Of a DNA stretch of 43,788 nucleotides, positions 7,346-43,788 are shown in pieces. The DNA is taken from IMG/VR virus record IMGVR_UViG_3300023222_000040, positions 1 to 43,788 of that record. One strand, written 5' to 3'. The position numbers were made by a program, and so were the translations under genes. Positions within the stretch are counted from its first letter, which is position 1. Every line of letters begins with the position of its first letter. Origin of the DNA: a virus. The notes beneath the pieces are model-generated. The model ran no database searches and was not told where the DNA came from. It was given only the letters and a program-made list of their open reading frames with translations.

Positions 7346-7766
7346 GAATGCGTTATTGTTTGTAGTTCTTGGTTATTCATACAGTAAATCAAGAAAGCTA
7401 CCATTGTTAATATACCTTTTTGTGGTTGTTGGTCACATGACAGCTGATTACGCGCTTATTAACTCATTAGGTGATCGAAGCTTGCCATATGAAAATATGG
7501 TTTACTATTGGGCTTTGTCGATACTCTTCCTACTTTCGTTTGGTATCATGATGATAAGAGTGACAAGGATATCTCAAATATTTGCAGCCTGCCTACTGCC
7601 GCAATCACTCATAAGTTTTATGATGGCGATAAACGGCGCGGAGCTAAATGGATTAACACTGCCACATTATGATATCATACCAACTATTCATGAGGTTTTT
7701 AACTCTAAAATATGGGGCGTTGAGTGTATAGCGGCTTATATTGCAATGAAAACTAATTATAAATAA
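7320..7766 (+). CDS. Multi-pass membrane protein
   Basis: The 148-residue protein has about four hydrophobic segments (near residues 5-20, 28-48, 62-80 and 88-106). It starts with GTG 5 bp after TGGAGG, which is why I prefer this start. No family is recognised. It could be a holin, a superinfection-exclusion protein or a transporter-like moron; the sequence does not decide. Confidence 0.55.
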   Translation: MLETTVLIENALLFVVLGYSYSKSRKLPLLIYLFVVVGHMTADYALINSLGDRSLPYENMVYYWALSILFLLSFGIMMIRVTRISQIFAACLLPQSLISFMMAINGAELNGLTLPHYDIIPTIHEVFNSKIWGVECIAAYIAMKTNYK

Positions 7767-7786
7767 ACGCCAATTAATGAGGTTTT

Positions 7787-8167
7787 ATGGCTGAAAGTGG
7801 TGGAGTGCCGGCTATTTTAACTGCGTCAGGAAGTGCTTTAATCCTGCTCCCTGAAATTGTTAAAGCGGGTGATAACGACGGTGTTAAACTTGCGTCCGCC
7901 ACTGCCGAAGCGTCAGTTACGTTAACCCCGATGTTAATAATTCAGCTGGCAGGCGTTGCAATAGGCGTCGCAGGGGTTGTGATTGGTTACCTTAGATGGC
8001 GAGAGCATCAAATAACAAATAGAGAAAACGTAAGATCTAATGACCTAACAGAGAAAAGACTGGAGTACGACATTGCCAAGAGTAACAACAATAAAGAAAA
8101 AGCAGCCGAAAAACAGCAAGCATCCGGTAGTAGTGGTAAAGGTAAAAAAACCAGCAAGAAAGCGTAA
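7787..8167 (+). CDS. Holin-like membrane protein
   Basis: The 126-residue protein has a weak amino-terminal hydrophobic segment (about 8-24), a strong one at about 48-68 (MLIIQLAGVAIGVAGVVIGYLRW) and a long, highly charged lysine-rich carboxy tail ending GKGKKTSKKA. That arrangement is typical of phage holins. It is separated from the endolysin, which lies on the other strand with its own holin candidate, so the role is uncertain. A terminator follows directly. Confidence 0.45.
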   Translation: MAESGGVPAILTASGSALILLPEIVKAGDNDGVKLASATAEASVTLTPMLIIQLAGVAIGVAGVVIGYLRWREHQITNRENVRSNDLTEKRLEYDIAKSNNNKEKAAEKQQASGSSGKGKKTSKKA

Positions 8168-8181
8168 AGCTACTGCTTAAT

Positions 8182-8209
8182 AAAAAGCCTCAGTTAATGG
8201 GGCTTTTTT
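8182..8209 (+). terminator. Rho-independent terminator upstream of the ter module
   Basis: Stem AAAAAGCCTC (8182-8191), loop AGTTAAT, stem GGGGCTTTTT (8199-8208) with the T run in the stem and after it. It separates the early genes from the ter module. The A-rich arm would also let it act on the opposite strand. Confidence 0.85.
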
Positions 8210-8236
8210 ATGTTCACAGTAAAATAAATGATTTTA

Positions 8237-8270
8237 ACGGTTGACACGGTTATAACGGTTGTAGTAGTAT
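8237..8270 (+). promoter_or_regulatory. Promoter of the ter module with three 9-bp-spaced ACGGTT repeats
   Basis: TTGACA (8241-8246) is a perfect -35 box; an 18-bp spacer leads to TAGTAT (8265-8270). ACGGTT occurs at 8237, 8246 and 8255, exactly 9 bp apart, running through the -35 box and the spacer. Direct repeats placed like this usually bind a regulator in tandem, so the promoter is probably controlled rather than constitutive. The small protein encoded 25 bp downstream is a natural candidate regulator. Confidence 0.7.
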
Positions 8271-8294
8271 TATCAATATTGAAGAGGAAGCCAA

Positions 8295-8444
8295 ATGAAG
8301 ACCATGACAATAACAGAGGTTTCTCGCAAACCTAACTCTCTAAGAAAAGCCCTTGAACAGGGTGATGTTAGAATAATCTGGAAAGAAGCAAAGCCAAACG
8401 GACTTGTAACACTTTCTGCAATCGCAAAAAAAGAAGGAAAATAA
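8295..8444 (+). CDS. Phd/YefM-antitoxin-like small protein
   Basis: The 49-residue protein (MKTMTITEVSRKPNSLRKAL..., then DVRIIWKEAKPNGLVTLSAI) follows the plan of the Phd/YefM DNA-binding domain: an opening strand, a helix around NSLRKALEQG, then two strands with the Pro-x-x-hydrophobic pattern. It is shorter than full antitoxins (usually 70-90 residues) and lacks a toxin-neutralising tail, and no toxin gene is adjacent. It has an AGAGGAAG site and ends 1 bp before terD. It likely autoregulates the ter module by binding the repeats upstream (inference). Confidence 0.5.
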   Translation: MKTMTITEVSRKPNSLRKALEQGDVRIIWKEAKPNGLVTLSAIAKKEGK

Positions 8445-8445
8445 A

Positions 8446-9009
8446 ATGTTAAATATTATCGAGAAAGGAATTACATTCGAGTTAAGCGTTAAATCAAAGC
8501 AGGAAAACAGCGGTACATTCTATTTTGGTGCTGGTTGGGACAACCCGACAGGGCCAGTTGATTTAGATATCGTTTGCGCAGTCCTTACTGACGGTAAACT
8601 TAAAACCGGAAGTGACTTTGTTTACTTTGGCAATAAGTCAACAGCGGGTGTTTTACTATCGGAAGATAATACTACCGGTGAAGGTGAGGGCGACGATGAG
8701 GATATCGTTATCAATACCGCTAAACTGTCAAAAGATGTTGATAAAGTCGTTATCGGTCTTGTTGCTTATGCTGGTGCTGACTTGCACGGAGCTGTAAATA
8801 CTCACTTCCGTGTTTGTGATGGCGATAATGAAAATAGCGATCAAATTGGTGACATCTTGCTTTCTGGTGCCGCTGCTGGTGATACCGTGTTGGTTGCATT
8901 CTCACTTATTAAGACTTCAAGTGGATGGGTTATTGAAAATGAAAGTGAATTCCATAAAAAAGGTCAAGGATCAAACGCCATCAAAGCCTTTGGTGAAATG
9001 TTTCAATAA
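8446..9009 (+). CDS. terD: TerD-family calcium-binding stress protein
   Basis: The 187-residue protein is near the usual TerD length. It carries the family hallmarks: GWD (30-32), DLDIV (39-43), a VYFGN segment, then SEDNTTGEGEGDDEDI (about residues 72-87), which holds the acidic residues that coordinate calcium. TerD proteins are cytoplasmic and, with TerB and TerC, are linked to tellurite resistance, resistance to phage and colicins, and envelope or metal stress. Here it lies in one unit with terB and terC, with a Phd-like protein ahead. A terminator-like hairpin follows, so terD may be made in excess over terB and terC. Confidence 0.93.
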   Translation: MLNIIEKGITFELSVKSKQENSGTFYFGAGWDNPTGPVDLDIVCAVLTDGKLKTGSDFVYFGNKSTAGVLLSEDNTTGEGEGDDEDIVINTAKLSKDVDKVVIGLVAYAGADLHGAVNTHFRVCDGDNENSDQIGDILLSGAAAGDTVLVAFSLIKTSSGWVIENESEFHKKGQGSNAIKAFGEMFQ

Positions 9010-9025
9010 TAAATAAAGTAACGAC

Positions 9026-9051
9026 AAAAGGGGCTGTTAAGCTCCTTTTTT
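9026..9051 (+). terminator. Intrinsic terminator/attenuator between terD and terB
   Basis: Stem AAAAGGGGC (9026-9034), loop TGTTAA, stem GCTCCTTTT (9041-9049, one G-T pair), then more T. The next start codon is only 17 bp on, so the hairpin is likely a partial terminator that lowers terB-terC expression relative to terD. Confidence 0.8.
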
Positions 9052-9067
9052 ATATAGAGAGGTTTGT

Positions 9068-9508
9068 ATGTTTGATAAAATTAAGAATTTAGCAAAAAGC
9101 GCAATTGTTAATGGCGAGGTTGCTTTATCTAGAGTTGTTGATAAGGCTGCTTTTAAACGTGTAATAGAAGCAAGCTACCTGATCGCAAATGCTGACGATG
9201 ACTTTGATAGTGATGAAAAGAAAGCTGTATCCAAAATCATTGCAAAAGAATTACCTCAGTTTAAATTGAATGACATTCTCGCAGAGATAAAAGCATGCGA
9301 TGAAAAGGTTGGTTTTGACAAGGGTATGGCAACACTTGAAATGCTTGATTCAATCTCAAAAGCCAAGGGGACGCCAGAAGCAGAGATGATCATGAGAATA
9401 GTCTGTTACATTGGCGAGGCTGATGGTAGCTTTGATGGTTGCGAAAAGCTAGTAGCAAGAGATATTGCAGTTAGACTTGATCTACCAATGAAAAGGTATG
9501 GACTATGA
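9068..9508 (+). CDS. terB: TerB-family tellurite resistance protein
   Basis: The 146-residue all-helical protein matches TerB (usually about 150 residues). The duplicated acidic metal-binding signature is visible: ANADDDFDSDEKKAV (about 41-55) and GEADGSFDGCEK (about 118-129). TerB associates with membrane TerC and cytoplasmic TerD and probably senses or binds metal (family knowledge). GAGAGG precedes the start. It overlaps terC by 4 bp, so the pair is translationally coupled. Confidence 0.93.
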   Translation: MFDKIKNLAKSAIVNGEVALSRVVDKAAFKRVIEASYLIANADDDFDSDEKKAVSKIIAKELPQFKLNDILAEIKACDEKVGFDKGMATLEMLDSISKAKGTPEAEMIMRIVCYIGEADGSFDGCEKLVARDIAVRLDLPMKRYGL

Positions 9509-10377
9509 TCGACACTCAGACTCTAATTGTATTTATCGTATCAGTTTGCTTGATGATAATGCTGGATCTTTACTTGCACAGAAAAGATGCTGAAGTGTCA
9601 TTTAAGTCTGCCGTTTGCTGGTCACTATTTTATATTGCTTGCGCGTTTGCATTCGCGGGTTACATATACCTAACTAGGGGTGCTGGTGATGCAAGCTTAT
9701 TCCTAACTGGTTACTCATTAGAAAAGGTTTTAGCGTTCGATAATCTTTTTGTATTCAGTTTGATATTTACATACTTTAAAATACCAGACAGAAAAAAACA
9801 TGCAGCTCTACACTGGGGTATTGCTGGCGCGATAGTGTTCAGGCTTGTATTTGTTATCATCGGTGCCAAGTCGATAGAATACATAGGTGGCACTGTAGAA
9901 TTGGTATTTGCATTTATCATACTGTTTACGGTTTATCTAATGGCTAAGTCTGACGGTGATGATGATGTTGATTATGATAAAGTTTGGTATGTTAGATTAA
10001 TTAGAAAGGCTTACCCTGGTGCTAGCGTGTTCTTTATTGCTGTATGCGTTATTGAGGTGAGTGATATAATATTTTCGTTTGATAGTGTTCCAGCTATCAT
10101 AGCGGTGACTAAGGATCCAATGCTAATTTATAGCTCCATGATATTCGCTATACTTGGTTTAAGGTCTATGTTCTTCATCATTGAATCACTCAACAAATAC
10201 TTTGTTAACATGGATAAGGCTGTTATGTGCGTCCTAGTATTCATATCTGCAAAGTTAATACTAAGCTCATTGATCTCGTACCATATTGATCCGAATATAA
10301 GTTTGATAGTGATCATAATCATGCTTACTGTGGGCGCTGTTAGCTCACTGTTCACAAATAAAGTTAGTGAGGTTTAA
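9505..10377 (+). CDS. terC: TerC-family integral membrane protein
   Basis: The 290-residue protein has about eight or nine membrane spans. Both family signatures are intact: EKVLAFDNLFVFSLIF (about 73-88) and SFDSVPAI followed by FAILGLRSMFF (about 190-225), each with a conserved membrane-embedded aspartate. TerC/Alx proteins export or handle manganese and serve in tellurite and alkaline stress responses (family knowledge). A phage copy would act in the host inner membrane during infection. It overlaps terB (ATGA), and its stop abuts the next small gene. Confidence 0.93.
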   Translation: MIDTQTLIVFIVSVCLMIMLDLYLHRKDAEVSFKSAVCWSLFYIACAFAFAGYIYLTRGAGDASLFLTGYSLEKVLAFDNLFVFSLIFTYFKIPDRKKHAALHWGIAGAIVFRLVFVIIGAKSIEYIGGTVELVFAFIILFTVYLMAKSDGDDDVDYDKVWYVRLIRKAYPGASVFFIAVCVIEVSDIIFSFDSVPAIIAVTKDPMLIYSSMIFAILGLRSMFFIIESLNKYFVNMDKAVMCVLVFISAKLILSSLISYHIDPNISLIVIIIMLTVGAVSSLFTNKVSEV

Positions 10378-10470
10378 ATGACAGGTTTATTTTTAATTGC
10401 ACCAGCCTTGATCGTTGGGTTTATGATTGGTCGAAGGTGGGAACGTATAACCAACTGGTTTAAAAAGTAG
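10378..10470 (+). CDS. Small membrane peptide at the end of the ter module
   Basis: This is a 30-residue peptide with a hydrophobic segment (LFLIAPALIVGFMIG) and a basic tail (RRWERITNWFKK). The start codon follows the terC stop directly, with GAGG inside the end of terC as the binding site. It could be a small TerC partner or an unrelated membrane peptide. Confidence 0.5.
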   Translation: MTGLFLIAPALIVGFMIGRRWERITNWFKK

Positions 10471-10476
10471 ATTTAT

Positions 10477-10500
10477 AGCCTCGTATATCGGGGCTTTTTT
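10477..10500 (+). terminator. Rho-independent terminator closing the ter module
   Basis: Stem AGCCTCG (10477-10483), loop TATAT, stem CGGGGCT (10489-10495, one G-T pair) followed by six T. With the terminator at 8182-8209 it isolates the ter module from the surrounding phage units. Confidence 0.88.
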
Positions 10501-10526
10501 GTTTCGGTAAAAAAAAGTGTTATAAT
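10499..10526 (+). promoter_or_regulatory. Late promoter candidate before the terminase genes
   Basis: TTGTTT (10499-10504), 16-bp spacer, perfect TATAAT (10521-10526) preceded by TGT, an extended -10 element. It directly follows a terminator and precedes the packaging and head genes, so it probably drives the late operon. An antiterminator acting from earlier genes, as in P22, is the alternative. Confidence 0.6.
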
Positions 10527-10538
10527 TAAGGGGTGAGC

Positions 10539-10661
10539 ATGTTAGTAATAGCGTTAATGGTTACAGGTTTTAGTTTTGTATATTACAACGCAGGATTACA
10601 CACTGCGATTGGAGTATATTTAATGGTGCTAGCAGTAGCGGCAAATAACAAACAATCCTAG
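10539..10661 (+). CDS. Small membrane protein ahead of the terminase genes
   Basis: The 40-residue protein is hydrophobic over most of its length, with two short hydrophobic segments split by YYNAGLHT. GGGGTGAG precedes the ATG. It is the first gene after the late promoter. Function unknown. Confidence 0.45.
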   Translation: MLVIALMVTGFSFVYYNAGLHTAIGVYLMVLAVAANNKQS

Positions 10662-10672
10662 AGGGGGTTATT

Positions 10673-11257
10673 ATGGCTAAAGAAAATGCCATCAAAGACC
10701 TTACCGAGAAGCAGAAGCAAATGCTTGAAGGTATGACGCCATTAAGACGAAAGATGGCAATGAACACACTAAAGGGAATGAAGCCCGCTCAGGCTCACAA
10801 GAAGGCTGGCGGTGATTGCAAGAACGAAGATAGGCGGAGAGCCTTAGGTAATCAAATCCTGTCTAATCCTGCCGTAAAGCAATTTCTAGACTCAGTCAAT
10901 CAAGATGTAGCCCATGAGTCCAAAGTAGACGCGACATACGTGCTTAATCGACTCTATGAAGTGGATAACATGGATGCGATAGATATACTCAATGACGACG
11001 GCTCTCTGAAGCCTCTGAGTGAATGGCCTAGAATATGGCGGTTAGAGCTAACTGGGTTTGAAATTGCAGAAATGTTTGAGTTTAGGAACGATGAGAAAGA
11101 GTTAGTCGGACTTCTAAAGAAAATAAAATGGACTGATAAAGCCAAGAACCGCGAAATGTTAGGTAAGCACAGGGCTGTAAATGCATTCAAGGAAACCATT
11201 GAGCATAAGCATGAAGTGGTGAATTTCAATATGCAATTCGGTGGTGGTAATGGTTGA
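10673..11257 (+). CDS. Terminase small subunit
   Basis: The 194-residue protein recognises the packaging site in phage DNA and regulates the large subunit. The amino-terminal part has the helix-turn-helix layout of the XtmA/Terminase_2 family (LTEKQKQMLEGMT, then MKPAQAHKKAGG, then ILSNPAVKQFLD, the usual helix before a coiled coil). The carboxy part carries WTDKAKNREMLGKH, common to this family. It lies directly ahead of the large subunit, whose start overlaps its stop. AGGGGG precedes the ATG. Confidence 0.85.
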   Translation: MAKENAIKDLTEKQKQMLEGMTPLRRKMAMNTLKGMKPAQAHKKAGGDCKNEDRRRALGNQILSNPAVKQFLDSVNQDVAHESKVDATYVLNRLYEVDNMDAIDILNDDGSLKPLSEWPRIWRLELTGFEIAEMFEFRNDEKELVGLLKKIKWTDKAKNREMLGKHRAVNAFKETIEHKHEVVNFNMQFGGGNG

Positions 11258-12890
11258 TATAACTTACATAGCATCGGCAACGGGCGCTAAGCTCCATTCA
11301 TCCAATAAGGTTGTGCGGGGCTTCCTTGGCCCAGTAGGTAATGGTAAGTCGGTAACCTGCATCAATGAAATGCATAGACTAGCCGTACTGCAAGAGCCCA
11401 ACTGTGATGGCATACGTAAAAGCAAGTGGGCTATCGTCCGTAACACTTACGACATGCTTGAAACTACAACACTTGCAACCTTTAAGCAGTGGATACCACA
11501 CCAAATATGCGGGATCACGTTAAAGCCTATGCGTGGTGATATGCAGTATCCGCTTGCTGATGGCACTAGGGTTGAATGTAAGTTTATATTCTTGGCATTG
11601 GATAGACCTGATGACGTTAAGAAGCTTCTATCACTGGAGGTAACGGGCGTATTCATGAATGAAGCGCGTGAGCTACCTTACGCAGTGGTTAAAGGTAGTC
11701 GTGAGCGTATCGGGCGCTATCCTTCACAGGTTGACGGTTACACGGATGTTTATGACGACAACGGAAAGCTTATCTATGACGCACCGAAAGAGCTAGATGA
11801 TAACGGTGATGTTGTTATCAATCCTGATGGTTCGCCAAAATACAAGCCTTGCACACGTAAATCATTGCTGATGGATAGTAACCCGCCGGACGATGACCAC
11901 TGGTGGTATCAACTAGCTGAAGATGGCTGCCTACGTTCAAACCAATCCAAAGAGGCGAAGATAGCCGTTGCTGAGATCTTTGACTTCTTCCGTGGACCTG
12001 CCCCATTTATCAAGAATGGCGAAACATACACCGATAACCCACTAGCTGAAAACATCAAATTCTTACCAGGTGGCTATAAGTACTATCGAGATATGTTAGC
12101 CGGTAGTGAAGAAGATCATATAAACGTAATGGTAATGGGTAACTACGGCACTATTAAAGACGGTAAACCAGTTTATCCGCAATACAATGACCGTTTACAC
12201 TGCCCTGAAAAACCATTGGGCGTTATCGAAGATCTGCCAATCGGCCTTGGCTGGGATGGCGGTCTAACTCCATCATGTATCATTGGTCAGCAAACTAGAC
12301 GCGGGCAACTTCGTGTTATTGCTGAATTAGTCAGTGAAGATATGGGCGTTAGGCAGTTTGCACGTGACATTGTTAAGCCATTCCTACAGCGTAATTTCTA
12401 CGGCATTGAGGTTGCATTTAGCTATATTGATCCAGCGGGTAAAGGTCGTGGTGAAGCAGAAGCTAAGTCAGCAATGGGTATACTTAACGATGAGTATGTG
12501 GAAGATAACATGGATGGTGATATAATCCAGCCTCTTAACATGGGCTTTGAAACTGAACCAGCACCAACGAATGACCCATCAAAACGTATTGACGCGGTAA
12601 ACTCGTATATAATTAAGCTTGTTGACGGTGAGCCAGGTTATCTAGTTAGCCGTAAATGTCCGATGATACGCAAAGGCAAGATCGGCGGCTATCAATACAA
12701 ACGAATGCAAATGTCGGGCGAGGCTAGGTTTAAGGATAAACCGGACAAGAACAGGTTTTCACATCCAGCAGATGCAGAACAATACATGGCGCTTGGCTTT
12801 GCTGGCGGTTATGTTAACGATTTAAAGGATAACTTTGATGATGACTATGATGATTTTAACATAGACGACGTTGGAGTGATGGGGTATTGA
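11250..12890 (+). CDS. Terminase large subunit
   Basis: The packaging ATPase and nuclease pumps DNA into the prohead and cuts the concatemer. The amino-terminal ATPase has a Walker A (GPVGNGKS near residue 27) and a Walker B position in TGVFMNEARELP, where N replaces the usual D before E. The carboxy-terminal RNase H-like nuclease shows GWDGGLTPS, YIDPAG and HPADAEQYMALGF, with acidic metal ligands. It has about 546 residues from the ATG at 11250; in-frame GTG codons at 11241 and 11244 are alternatives. The start overlaps the small-subunit stop. Confidence 0.9.
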   Translation: MVDITYIASATGAKLHSSNKVVRGFLGPVGNGKSVTCINEMHRLAVLQEPNCDGIRKSKWAIVRNTYDMLETTTLATFKQWIPHQICGITLKPMRGDMQYPLADGTRVECKFIFLALDRPDDVKKLLSLEVTGVFMNEARELPYAVVKGSRERIGRYPSQVDGYTDVYDDNGKLIYDAPKELDDNGDVVINPDGSPKYKPCTRKSLLMDSNPPDDDHWWYQLAEDGCLRSNQSKEAKIAVAEIFDFFRGPAPFIKNGETYTDNPLAENIKFLPGGYKYYRDMLAGSEEDHINVMVMGNYGTIKDGKPVYPQYNDRLHCPEKPLGVIEDLPIGLGWDGGLTPSCIIGQQTRRGQLRVIAELVSEDMGVRQFARDIVKPFLQRNFYGIEVAFSYIDPAGKGRGEAEAKSAMGILNDEYVEDNMDGDIIQPLNMGFETEPAPTNDPSKRIDAVNSYIIKLVDGEPGYLVSRKCPMIRKGKIGGYQYKRMQMSGEARFKDKPDKNRFSHPADAEQYMALGFAGGYVNDLKDNFDDDYDDFNIDDVGVMGY

Positions 12891-41481: not shown

Positions 41482-41769
41482 ATGGAAAAGTTTACAAAAG
41501 GTAAGTGGGAAGTTGCAATCAATAAAAACTGGCGTAACGATAACTGCATTTGCAAGATGAGCGATGATACAGCGGTTGTTACTGACGTTTACACTTACAG
41601 CGGGTCTATTGATGCTGACGCCCATCTAATCGCAGCAGCACCGGAAATGTACAGACTAATAAGCGATCTTTCCGCTTTTAATTGTCCATTTGAATACATG
41701 ACTCCCGATGAGATGATCGCGTTCACTAAGATTGAAAAATTACTAGCTAAAGCCCGCGGTGAAAAATAG
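41482..41769 (+). CDS. Conserved phage protein of the LIAAAPEM type
   Basis: The 95-residue protein has the recurring phage signature KGKWEVA near the start and ADAHLIAAAPEMYRLI in the middle, known from many phages with unknown function. AGGGG lies ahead of the ATG. Confidence 0.6.
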   Translation: MEKFTKGKWEVAINKNWRNDNCICKMSDDTAVVTDVYTYSGSIDADAHLIAAAPEMYRLISDLSAFNCPFEYMTPDEMIAFTKIEKLLAKARGEK

Positions 41770-41799
41770 CTACTGGCATAAATAAGGTGGAAGTATGAA
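41767..41799 (+). repeat. 33-bp direct repeat flanking a gene (copy 1; copy 2 at 42666-42698)
   Basis: The 33 bp starting TAGCTACTGGC and including AAGGTGGAAG and the start codon ATGAA is found unchanged at 42666-42698. Each copy carries a stop codon of one gene (first copy) or spacer, a ribosome-binding site and the start of the next gene. The 866 bp in between hold one gene. Confidence 0.95.
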
Positions 41800-42658: not shown

Positions 42659-42676
42659 GCCAGTCTAGCTACTGGC
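42659..42676 (+). other. Perfect 6-bp inverted repeat at the cassette junction
   Basis: GCCAGT (42659-42664), CTAGCT, ACTGGC (42671-42676), spanning the edge of the second 33-bp repeat. The first copy lacks the left arm. It may be a junction trace or a hairpin in the leader. Confidence 0.5.
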
Positions 42677-42698
42677 ATAAATAAGGTGGAAGTATGAA
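42666..42698 (+). repeat. 33-bp direct repeat flanking a gene (copy 2)
   Basis: Identical to 41767-41799. It carries the ribosome site and start codon of the gene at 42694. Confidence 0.95.
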
Positions 42699-42921
42699 AA
42701 CAGAATTAGCAATAGATTTATCTAATAAAATTATAGGCAAGCTAATCGACACAGCTCTAACTGGAAGTAAGGCGACTGTGATTTATTTCGGTAGCGCTGA
42801 GTTTTCAATGTTAACCGAACTAAAGGCTTTAGGCGTGGCAACTAAAATTCAGAATGGGACGTTTATACACGGTGTTCGAATGATTCGAACTGTTGAAACT
42901 TCACACTGCGAGGTTTACTAG
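42694..42921 (+). CDS. Hypothetical protein coupled to the DpdA-like gene
   Basis: The 75-residue protein has an alpha/beta look (ATVIYFGSAEFSMLTELKALGVATK). Its TAG overlaps the next start (TAGTG), so the two are made together. It may be an accessory factor of the next gene, but only coupling supports this. Confidence 0.5.
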   Translation: MKTELAIDLSNKIIGKLIDTALTGSKATVIYFGSAEFSMLTELKALGVATKIQNGTFIHGVRMIRTVETSHCEVY

Positions 42922-43703
42922 TGGAAACCGCTGAAATTATTCACCACATGGGCACACCTGTATGGGGTAATAAAGGCGAAGTTTTGGCTGCTTGTGTAAG
43001 AAGTGGCGGCGCCTTTGTTTCATACGCCAGACCTGACCAGATAAGGCAGTGCATTAGGCAGGCTATATCTGTATGGATTGATAACGGCGCATTCAGTGCT
43101 TGGAAGAGTGGATTGGTAATAGACTGGCCTGATTTTTACGACTGGCTATTTCAGTATTATTACCATCCAACGGTTAAGCACTTCATAATTCCTGACACAA
43201 TAACTGGTAGTGAGGGGGAGAACGATAAGCTTGTTGATTCAGTGCCATTTTGGGCCAAAGAAAAAGCGGTTCCCGTTTGGCATTTACATGAGTCAATCAA
43301 TCGTCTAATAAGGCTTTGCAAAAGGTTTGACCGTGTAGCGTTTGGCAGTTCTGGCGAGTACGCAACCATTCGCACGAAGAAATGGCACGCAAGAATGAAA
43401 TTGGCATTTTTAGCCATGGACAAGCTAGGCGTTGGTAATACTAAGATACATGGGTTGAGAATGCTGGATGGTCGAGTGTTGGGTAACTATCCTTTAGCCA
43501 CTGCTGATAGCACCAACCTAGCGTGCAATGTGCCTAAGTATAAAGTTAAGTATCCGAATTTAGGCGGCCATATACTAAATAGAAACCCGTTCACCATTTC
43601 AGATAAGCATGAGCTATTGGTTTATCGAGCTGCCTCATTGCGTGGGGCAATTGAAAGCGTCAAACCTCCGACCATGCAAGAATGGCTCGTTGAAAATAGC
43701 TGA
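42921..43703 (+). CDS. TGT/DpdA-like TIM-barrel protein (candidate DNA 7-deazaguanine transglycosylase)
   Basis: The 260-residue protein, GTG start, shows a pattern like that of phage DpdA proteins, relatives of tRNA-guanine transglycosylase: VWIDNGAFSAWKSG (51-64, like the nucleophile strand), HFIIPDTITGSEGENDKLV (87-105), VPVWHLHE (117-124), RVAFGSSGEY (138-147) and KIHGLRML further on, each ending a beta strand of a barrel. DpdA swaps guanine in DNA for a 7-deazaguanine, which protects against restriction. No deazapurine synthesis genes (FolE, QueD, QueE, QueC) are in the window, so substrate would have to come from the host. The similarity is judged by eye. Confidence 0.45.
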   Translation: METAEIIHHMGTPVWGNKGEVLAACVRSGGAFVSYARPDQIRQCIRQAISVWIDNGAFSAWKSGLVIDWPDFYDWLFQYYYHPTVKHFIIPDTITGSEGENDKLVDSVPFWAKEKAVPVWHLHESINRLIRLCKRFDRVAFGSSGEYATIRTKKWHARMKLAFLAMDKLGVGNTKIHGLRMLDGRVLGNYPLATADSTNLACNVPKYKVKYPNLGGHILNRNPFTISDKHELLVYRAASLRGAIESVKPPTMQEWLVENS

Positions 43704-43788
43704 CATTAACGATAATTAACCAGCATTTATGTTAAATAGTGCTAATATTAATTGTTAATAAAGCCAGCCTCGCGCTGGTTTTTTATTG
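43645..43788. repeat. 144-bp terminal direct repeat (copy 2)
   Basis: Identical to bases 1-144. The overlap closes the circle at the end of the DpdA-like gene. Confidence 0.95.
43760..43784 (+). terminator. Terminator (second copy from the terminal repeat)
   Basis: This is the same CCAGC/GCTGG hairpin and T run as at 116-140. It ends the unit that starts at 40436. Confidence 0.85.

Follow-up and report, generated by a model that had tools for sequence, protein, structure and literature searches.

A compact terD-terB-terC cassette with its own promoter and leader gene in a 44-kb phage genome

Background

Tellurite is seldom met in nature, which makes the very existence of ter genes a puzzle. 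Ter genes of jumbo phages and of some smaller tailed phages have been proposed to act against superinfecting phages, and xenobiotic resistance during pseudolysogeny has been suggested as another role for phage ter genes (PMC7824862). Here we describe a unit of terD, terB and terC in a viral genome, together with its promoter, its leader gene and its relatives in other phages, and weigh the explanations for its presence.

The phage genome

The window, meaning the whole stretch of DNA that was analysed (43,788 nucleotides), is a virus contig of ~44 kb. It represents a complete, circularly assembled viral genome, since the 144 bases at its start recur unchanged at its end (1-144 = 43645-43788). 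The best matches of its large terminase (TerL) are small podovirus terminases at 30-39% identity, and annotated TerL relatives include BcepC6B and the podoviruses vB_ValP_VA-RY-3 (Vibrio) and vB_CsaP_Ss1 (Cronobacter). The phage is thus probably short-tailed, an assignment based on terminase relatives, with tail genes only coarsely assigned. DNA-level comparison with known phages returned short matches in terS and nothing more. The genome also encodes a replication initiator, NinB, RecT, a YqaJ exonuclease and a Rha/antirepressor protein. A search confined to tyrosine integrases gave none, either in the window or in three cassette relatives described below.

Several other features of the genome deserve mention. 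Residues 137-178, midway along the replication-initiation protein (504-1643), form an HNH endonuclease domain, with matches to PHROGs replication families before the domain and to one after it. The gene at 42921-43703 encodes a queuine tRNA-ribosyltransferase-like protein (phrog_887, 4.8e-72) and is a second accessory gene, possibly for DNA or tRNA base modification. An exact 33-bp direct repeat (41767-41799 and 42666-42698) encompasses, in each of two genes, the ribosome-binding site and the gene start.

The ter genes and their products

The first-pass annotation recognized TerD, TerB and TerC as intact from their family signatures, and profile searches agree, placing all three above the curated Pfam cut-offs: TerD at 2e-19 (70 bits, cut-off 25), TerB at 3.6e-10 (41 bits, cut-off 24) and TerC at 1.5e-37 (130 bits, cut-off 28). 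Chance or misannotation is ruled out by these matches. TerC also exceeds the cut-off of NCBIfam TIGR03718, named 'TerC/Alx family metal homeostasis membrane protein' (263 versus 246 bits). Solved structures are matched by TerD (3ibz, 1.8e-12; 2kxt, 4.5e-11) and by TerB (2jxu, 2e-6). Metal-binding-type residues are kept both in the acidic loop of TerD and in the E/D residues of TerC, where D21, E73, D79, E184, D187 and D193 are conserved; E73, D79, D187 and D193 never vary and E184 hardly does, these five each being present in 34-36 of 36 TerC sequences. The genome encodes only one TerD, and its content of terC and terD with terB corresponds to the minimal tellurite-resistance sets terCD and terBCD.

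In a tree of the 36 TerC sequences, the window protein belongs to a viral clade with six members (support 100/99). This clade lies inside a group holding plasmid ter-operon TerC and phage TerCs, and apart from the chromosomal TerC rows included in the tree. Recent capture from a known bacterium was also considered and is rejected, as a pattern scan of 84,980 genomes gave no TerD relative. TerC matches in these genomes are just 29-36% identical, and plasmid TerC reaches ~42% over nearly full length.

Organization of the unit

The features of the unit are listed in Table 1. As the first-pass annotation had proposed, it has its own promoter and is bounded by terminator-like hairpins at both ends, and both hairpins are more stable than shuffled sequences. 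The upstream hairpin would isolate the unit from the preceding genes. TTGACA-N18-TAGTAT has a single match in the window, and 3 of 100 shuffles contain one. The promoter spacer contains an 8-bp palindrome, GTTATAAC, and TTATAACGGTTG in the promoter region partly repeats TTTTAACGGTTG 18 bp upstream; together, the partial repeat and the palindrome are a possible operator. No Mn riboswitch or other Rfam element was found near the unit.

Table 1. Features of the ter unit (window positions)
Feature	Position	Strand	Remarks
Upstream intrinsic-terminator-like hairpin	~8182..8214	+	AAAAAGCCTCA/TGGGGCTTTTT + T-run; -13.6 kcal/mol, z -4.2 vs shuffles
Predicted sigma70-type promoter	8241..8270	+	TTGACA-N18-TAGTAT
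P49 leader gene	8295..8444	+	49 aa; conserved
terD	8446..9009	+	187 aa; acidic (Ca2+-type) motif DNTTGEGEGDDE intact
Terminator-like hairpin between terD and terB	9026..9053	+	T-run; -13.2 kcal/mol, z -3.1
terB	9068..9508	+	146 aa
terC	9505..10377	+	290-aa membrane protein; 4-nt overlap with terB
30-aa membrane peptide gene	10378..10470	+	begins directly after terC stop
Downstream intrinsic terminator	~10477..10501	+	hairpin + T-run, z -2.6 vs shuffles

Describing these genes as one unit calls for some qualification, since a third hairpin, absent from that first account, lies between terD and terB. The layout is hence better written as [49-aa gene-terD]-hairpin-[terB-terC-30-aa peptide]. Hairpin-forming sequences that differ in sequence occupy the corresponding position in the four D-B-C relatives described below (loci L050, L052, L053 and L077), and one sits between terD and terC in L081; the case of L052 is weaker, as the minimum-energy fold of its whole terD-terB spacer uses other pairs. 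The internal hairpin likely lowers expression of terBC relative to terD, in which case TerD would be made in excess over TerB and TerC. The 30-aa membrane peptide has no family match, and other small membrane proteins occupy its place in the relatives.

Relatives of the cassette and its mobility

To survey phage genomes for the same gene order had been a suggestion of the first-pass annotation. Scans of IMG/VR for TerC and TerD revealed the cassette in four other contigs (3300022690_000347, 3300023222_000094, 3300037628_000359 and 3300023223_000319), all with the order terD-terB-terC, a hairpin after terD and a small membrane protein after terC, as in the window. The first three also share the promoter and the 49-aa leader, so that leader-terD-terB-terC occurs in three other viral contigs, and D-B-C without leader in the fourth. 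Identities to the window are 67-73% for TerD, 48-61% for TerB and 58-64% for TerC, and a membrane protein of 76-96 aa with an ESG-x-x-YKY motif replaces the 30-aa peptide. The 4-nt overlap of terB and terC is common to the window, L050, L052, L053 and L077. It should be noted that the collection scans rely on exact short patterns, and hence all counts derived from them are lower bounds.

The cassette does not occupy one fixed site. It precedes terS in the window and in 3300023222_000094 (terS of the latter named by eye), and lies downstream of the portal gene in 3300037628_000359 and 3300023223_000319 (portal named by eye). In 3300023222_000094 it is split across the contig ends, and the overlap of these ends (575 bases at 91%) suggests a nearly complete genome. 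The corresponding ends, L051 1-584 and the end of L077, overlap at 91% and not 100%, which reflects either mixed strains in the assembly or a tandem pair of terB copies. Directly behind the ter cassette of L053, positions 7534-11339 contain genes that, judged by eye, resemble those for an RtcB RNA ligase, a PRPP synthetase and a nicotinamide phosphoribosyltransferase.

L081, a fifth contig, lacks terB: its terD is followed by terC, and this by a different membrane peptide, of 49 aa. It also contains a palindromic element, GTACACC-N6-GGTGTAC, and a near copy (~7915-7940 and ~9680-9705). As the element reaches into the promoter regions of both terD and a gene further on, terD may there share a phage-wide regulator.

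Of 26 records whose terminase is related, many of them fragments, not one contained TerC, and neither TerD nor TerB was found in any of the six larger TerL-related records tested. A module standard among the relatives of this phage is rejected on the TerC count in these 26 records. The lack of TerC in them, together with the presence of the cassette at other sites in other phages, is the pattern of a moron, an architecture that the first-pass annotation had recognized and to which the promoter and terminator predicted for the unit also conform. The sequence evidence therefore points to a self-contained mobile accessory cassette of small, probably short-tailed phages.

The leader protein P49

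The 49-aa product of the first gene, here called P49, had been described as Phd-like. Its place in the set is well founded. Its stop codon lies 1 nt before the start of terD, with identical spacing in L050, L052 and L077, and a scan for P49 alone recovered the three D-B-C relatives with a leader and another three contigs, of which two show no difference across the compared stretch. In six of six distinct viral genomes P49 is directly 5' of a ter gene. Two distinct P49 cassettes (L101 and L102) consist of P49, then a lone TerB from a different lineage (18-22% identity with window TerB), then a small membrane protein, with no TerC or TerD above cut-off in the record. TerB is the one Ter partner common to all six genomes. 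Judged by this conservation, the leader is a real protein family and a true member of the cassette. No P49 was found by tblastn against phage records; in the collections searched it occurs only beside phage ter genes, which makes this small conserved protein a new handle on them.

The promoter is equally constant. TTGACA-N16-18-TA(G/C)TAT occurs at most 75 bases upstream of P49 in all six distinct genomes, an arrangement reached by chance in 3-8 of 20,000 shuffles each (about 3 in 10,000). The exact TAGTAT form is present nowhere else in the first 95 loci, where about one chance match is expected. Palindromes of at least 6 bases occur in five of the six promoter spacers (shuffle p 0.001, in a post-hoc test).

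The likeness to Phd is suggested by the predicted fold and not by sequence profiles: searches of Pfam, PHROGs and NCBIfam gave P49 no match to Phd, and PF02604 is absent even at E 10 in Pfam. An AlphaFold2 model from six sequences (pLDDT 92) has the arrangement beta-alpha-alpha-beta-beta; an earlier model from four sequences had pLDDT 77 and no useful fold matches. In Foldseek, ranks 2-5 (E 0.35-0.47, TM 0.47-0.59) and several lower ones went to YefM and Phd chains, none of them significant. The modelled fold may resemble the N-terminal, DNA-binding-type domain of Phd/YefM, and it is plausible that P49 is an autorepressor of the cassette.

Possible roles of the cassette

The role that we consider most likely, with a probability of roughly one half, is that the cassette protects the infected cell, above all from a second phage. 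The host-type promoter and the lack of a tyrosine integrase lead to this choice, the latter making action during infection likelier than lysogenic conversion. The host-type promoter would drive P49, a probable autoregulator, and TerD; a partial terminator after terD would then pass less message into TerB, TerC and the small membrane peptide. The products may form a reduced Ter complex, with TerC in the inner membrane together with TerB, and Ca2+-binding TerD in the cytoplasm. Such a complex could make the envelope and the metal and redox balance of the infected cell more resistant during infection. The resident phage would most probably gain against a second phage, with tolerance of tellurite, Zn and Mn as by-products. 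The gene identities, architecture, conservation and mobility come from the present analysis, and the complex, the resistances and phage inhibition from the bacterial Ter literature; that P49 regulates its own cassette, that the hairpin attenuates and that the phage gains against superinfection is what we infer beyond them.

Support from bacteria comes from E. coli MG1655, which grows with terBCD at 1-5 ug/mL tellurite and weakly at 10-20, terCD being the functional core (PMC8779313), and from Klebsiella pneumoniae, where deletion of terC reduces resistance to Te, Zn, Mn and several phages (PMC12054061). In the latter source, older insertions in terC, terD or terZ are recorded as reducing phage inhibition, and a TerC-TerB complex is described, from cited work, as the central unit. 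Several points count against protection. No PADLOC model matches the unit. TerZ is absent from the window although its loss in bacteria also reduces phage inhibition. The two P49 cassettes with TerB alone imply that a C-D core is not always needed. Finally, a single superinfection-blocking effector protein would be simpler.

The strongest rival, to which we give a clearly smaller chance, is metal homeostasis for the phage's own replication: TerC and TerB would shift Mn2+/Zn2+ across the inner membrane, or load metal into membrane or exported proteins, so that the infected cell stays productive and any effect on rival phages is incidental. The match of TerC to the metal homeostasis model, its conserved acidic residues and the changes in Zn and Mn tolerance of the terC mutant are consistent with this. 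However, K. pneumoniae TerC did not function in Zn/Mn efflux when expressed heterologously (PMC12054061), the neighbourhood of the unit lacks a Mn riboswitch or other Rfam element, and window TerC clusters with TerC of the ter-operon type, not with the chromosomal rows included in the tree. Neither TerD nor the lone-TerB cassettes would be explained.

Lysogenic or pseudolysogenic conversion, through which the carrier bacterium would gain tellurite or oxidative-stress resistance as from plasmid or genomic-island ter clusters, seems improbable. The gene content is that of terBCD, which confers the partial tellurite resistance of E. coli noted above (PMC8779313); the promoter is of constitutive type; and the pseudolysogenic resistance suggested in PMC7824862 would be of this kind. 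Set against these are the missing tyrosine integrase in the window and three cassette relatives, from a search for this class, and a TerD without relative in the genome collection.

Less credible still is a toxin-antitoxin or addiction unit in disguise, with P49 as its antitoxin. P49 stands first in the unit, as antitoxins do, its model has some likeness to Phd/YefM N-terminal domains, and expression of terCD slows growth of E. coli (PMC8779313), but its 49 residues amount to a DNA-binding-type domain without the C-terminal toxin-binding segment of Phd, and no recognisable toxin adjoins it in any of the six genomes. Equally hard to credit is passenger DNA, picked up by chance and drifting without function. 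In its favour, the G+C of the unit lies below that of the genome (38.2% versus 41.4%); against it, all the genes are intact, their motifs are conserved, and relatives at 48-73% identity keep the order, the 1-nt and 4-nt spacings, the promoter and the hairpin.

Returning to protection of the infected cell, the P49 cassettes allow a broader and tentative proposal, about which we have more doubt than confidence. They may form an autoregulated family in which a fixed TTGACA/TAnTAT promoter and P49, a lone Phd/YefM-type repressor domain, make up the head, behind which the Ter payload is exchanged (TerD-TerB-TerC, or TerB alone of another lineage, plus a small membrane protein) and blocks competing phages; P49 would then be a new Ter-specific regulator. 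That ~2 kb of a 44-kb genome is spent on a B-C-D core with its own promoter and a small partner suggests that the core alone is useful during infection, and the cassette is a small, naturally occurring set on which the long-standing connection of Ter with phage inhibition can be put to the test.

Comparison with known systems

The first-pass annotation regarded this set of genes as unusual, a view that does not extend to phage-borne ter sets as such. Relatives of TerC, TerB and TerD are present in 172, 130 and 33 phage records, respectively, and the short-tailed Vibrio phages vB_VpaP-MS02 (OR102882) and BUCT194 (MZ447858, Schitoviridae) have complete sets, with TerD, TerC and TerB genes together. 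The MS02 order is TerD-TerD-orf-TerC-TerB, unlike D-B-C in the window. These two phages have 73-77-kb N4-like genomes with an extra TerD or TerB, their TerC and TerB are ~40% and ~32% identical to those of the window, and P49 was not found in them. Jumbo phages (Acinetobacter ME3 and Caulobacter, PMC7824862; also Brevundimonas) likewise carry TerC and TerD, but in jumbo genomes and in operons with TelA or other Ter parts, or in abbreviated forms without TerB. Ter genes are also carried by Pseudomonas syringae phages (PMC11256456). The lone TerB behind P49 in L101 and L102 can be compared with TciA, a TerB of phage P1 and of podophage Pollock (PMC4319500), alongside which no TerC or TerD is named; tciA, tciB and tciC of P1 are non-essential in CRISPRi (PMC10695390).

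The plasmid terZABCDE operon (IncHI2; L097) shares the adjacency of TerB and TerC and the same three families, with TerC 42% identical. There TerD is downstream of terC, whereas in the window it is upstream of terB, so that the gene order of the operon is not reproduced; TerZ, TerA and TerE are missing from the window, and neither P49 nor its promoter was seen at the plasmid operon. Among catalogued anti-phage defence systems, no PADLOC model matches the unit.

Phage-borne ter genes, including D/B/C sets in short-tailed Vibrio phages, are thus already known. The compact cassette family is without precedent in the databases and papers searched, and two of its aspects appear to be new. One is that phages of 44-54 kb carry D-B-C as a small mobile cassette with a promoter and leader protein of its own; the other is that the Ter payload is exchanged behind the promoter-P49 head.
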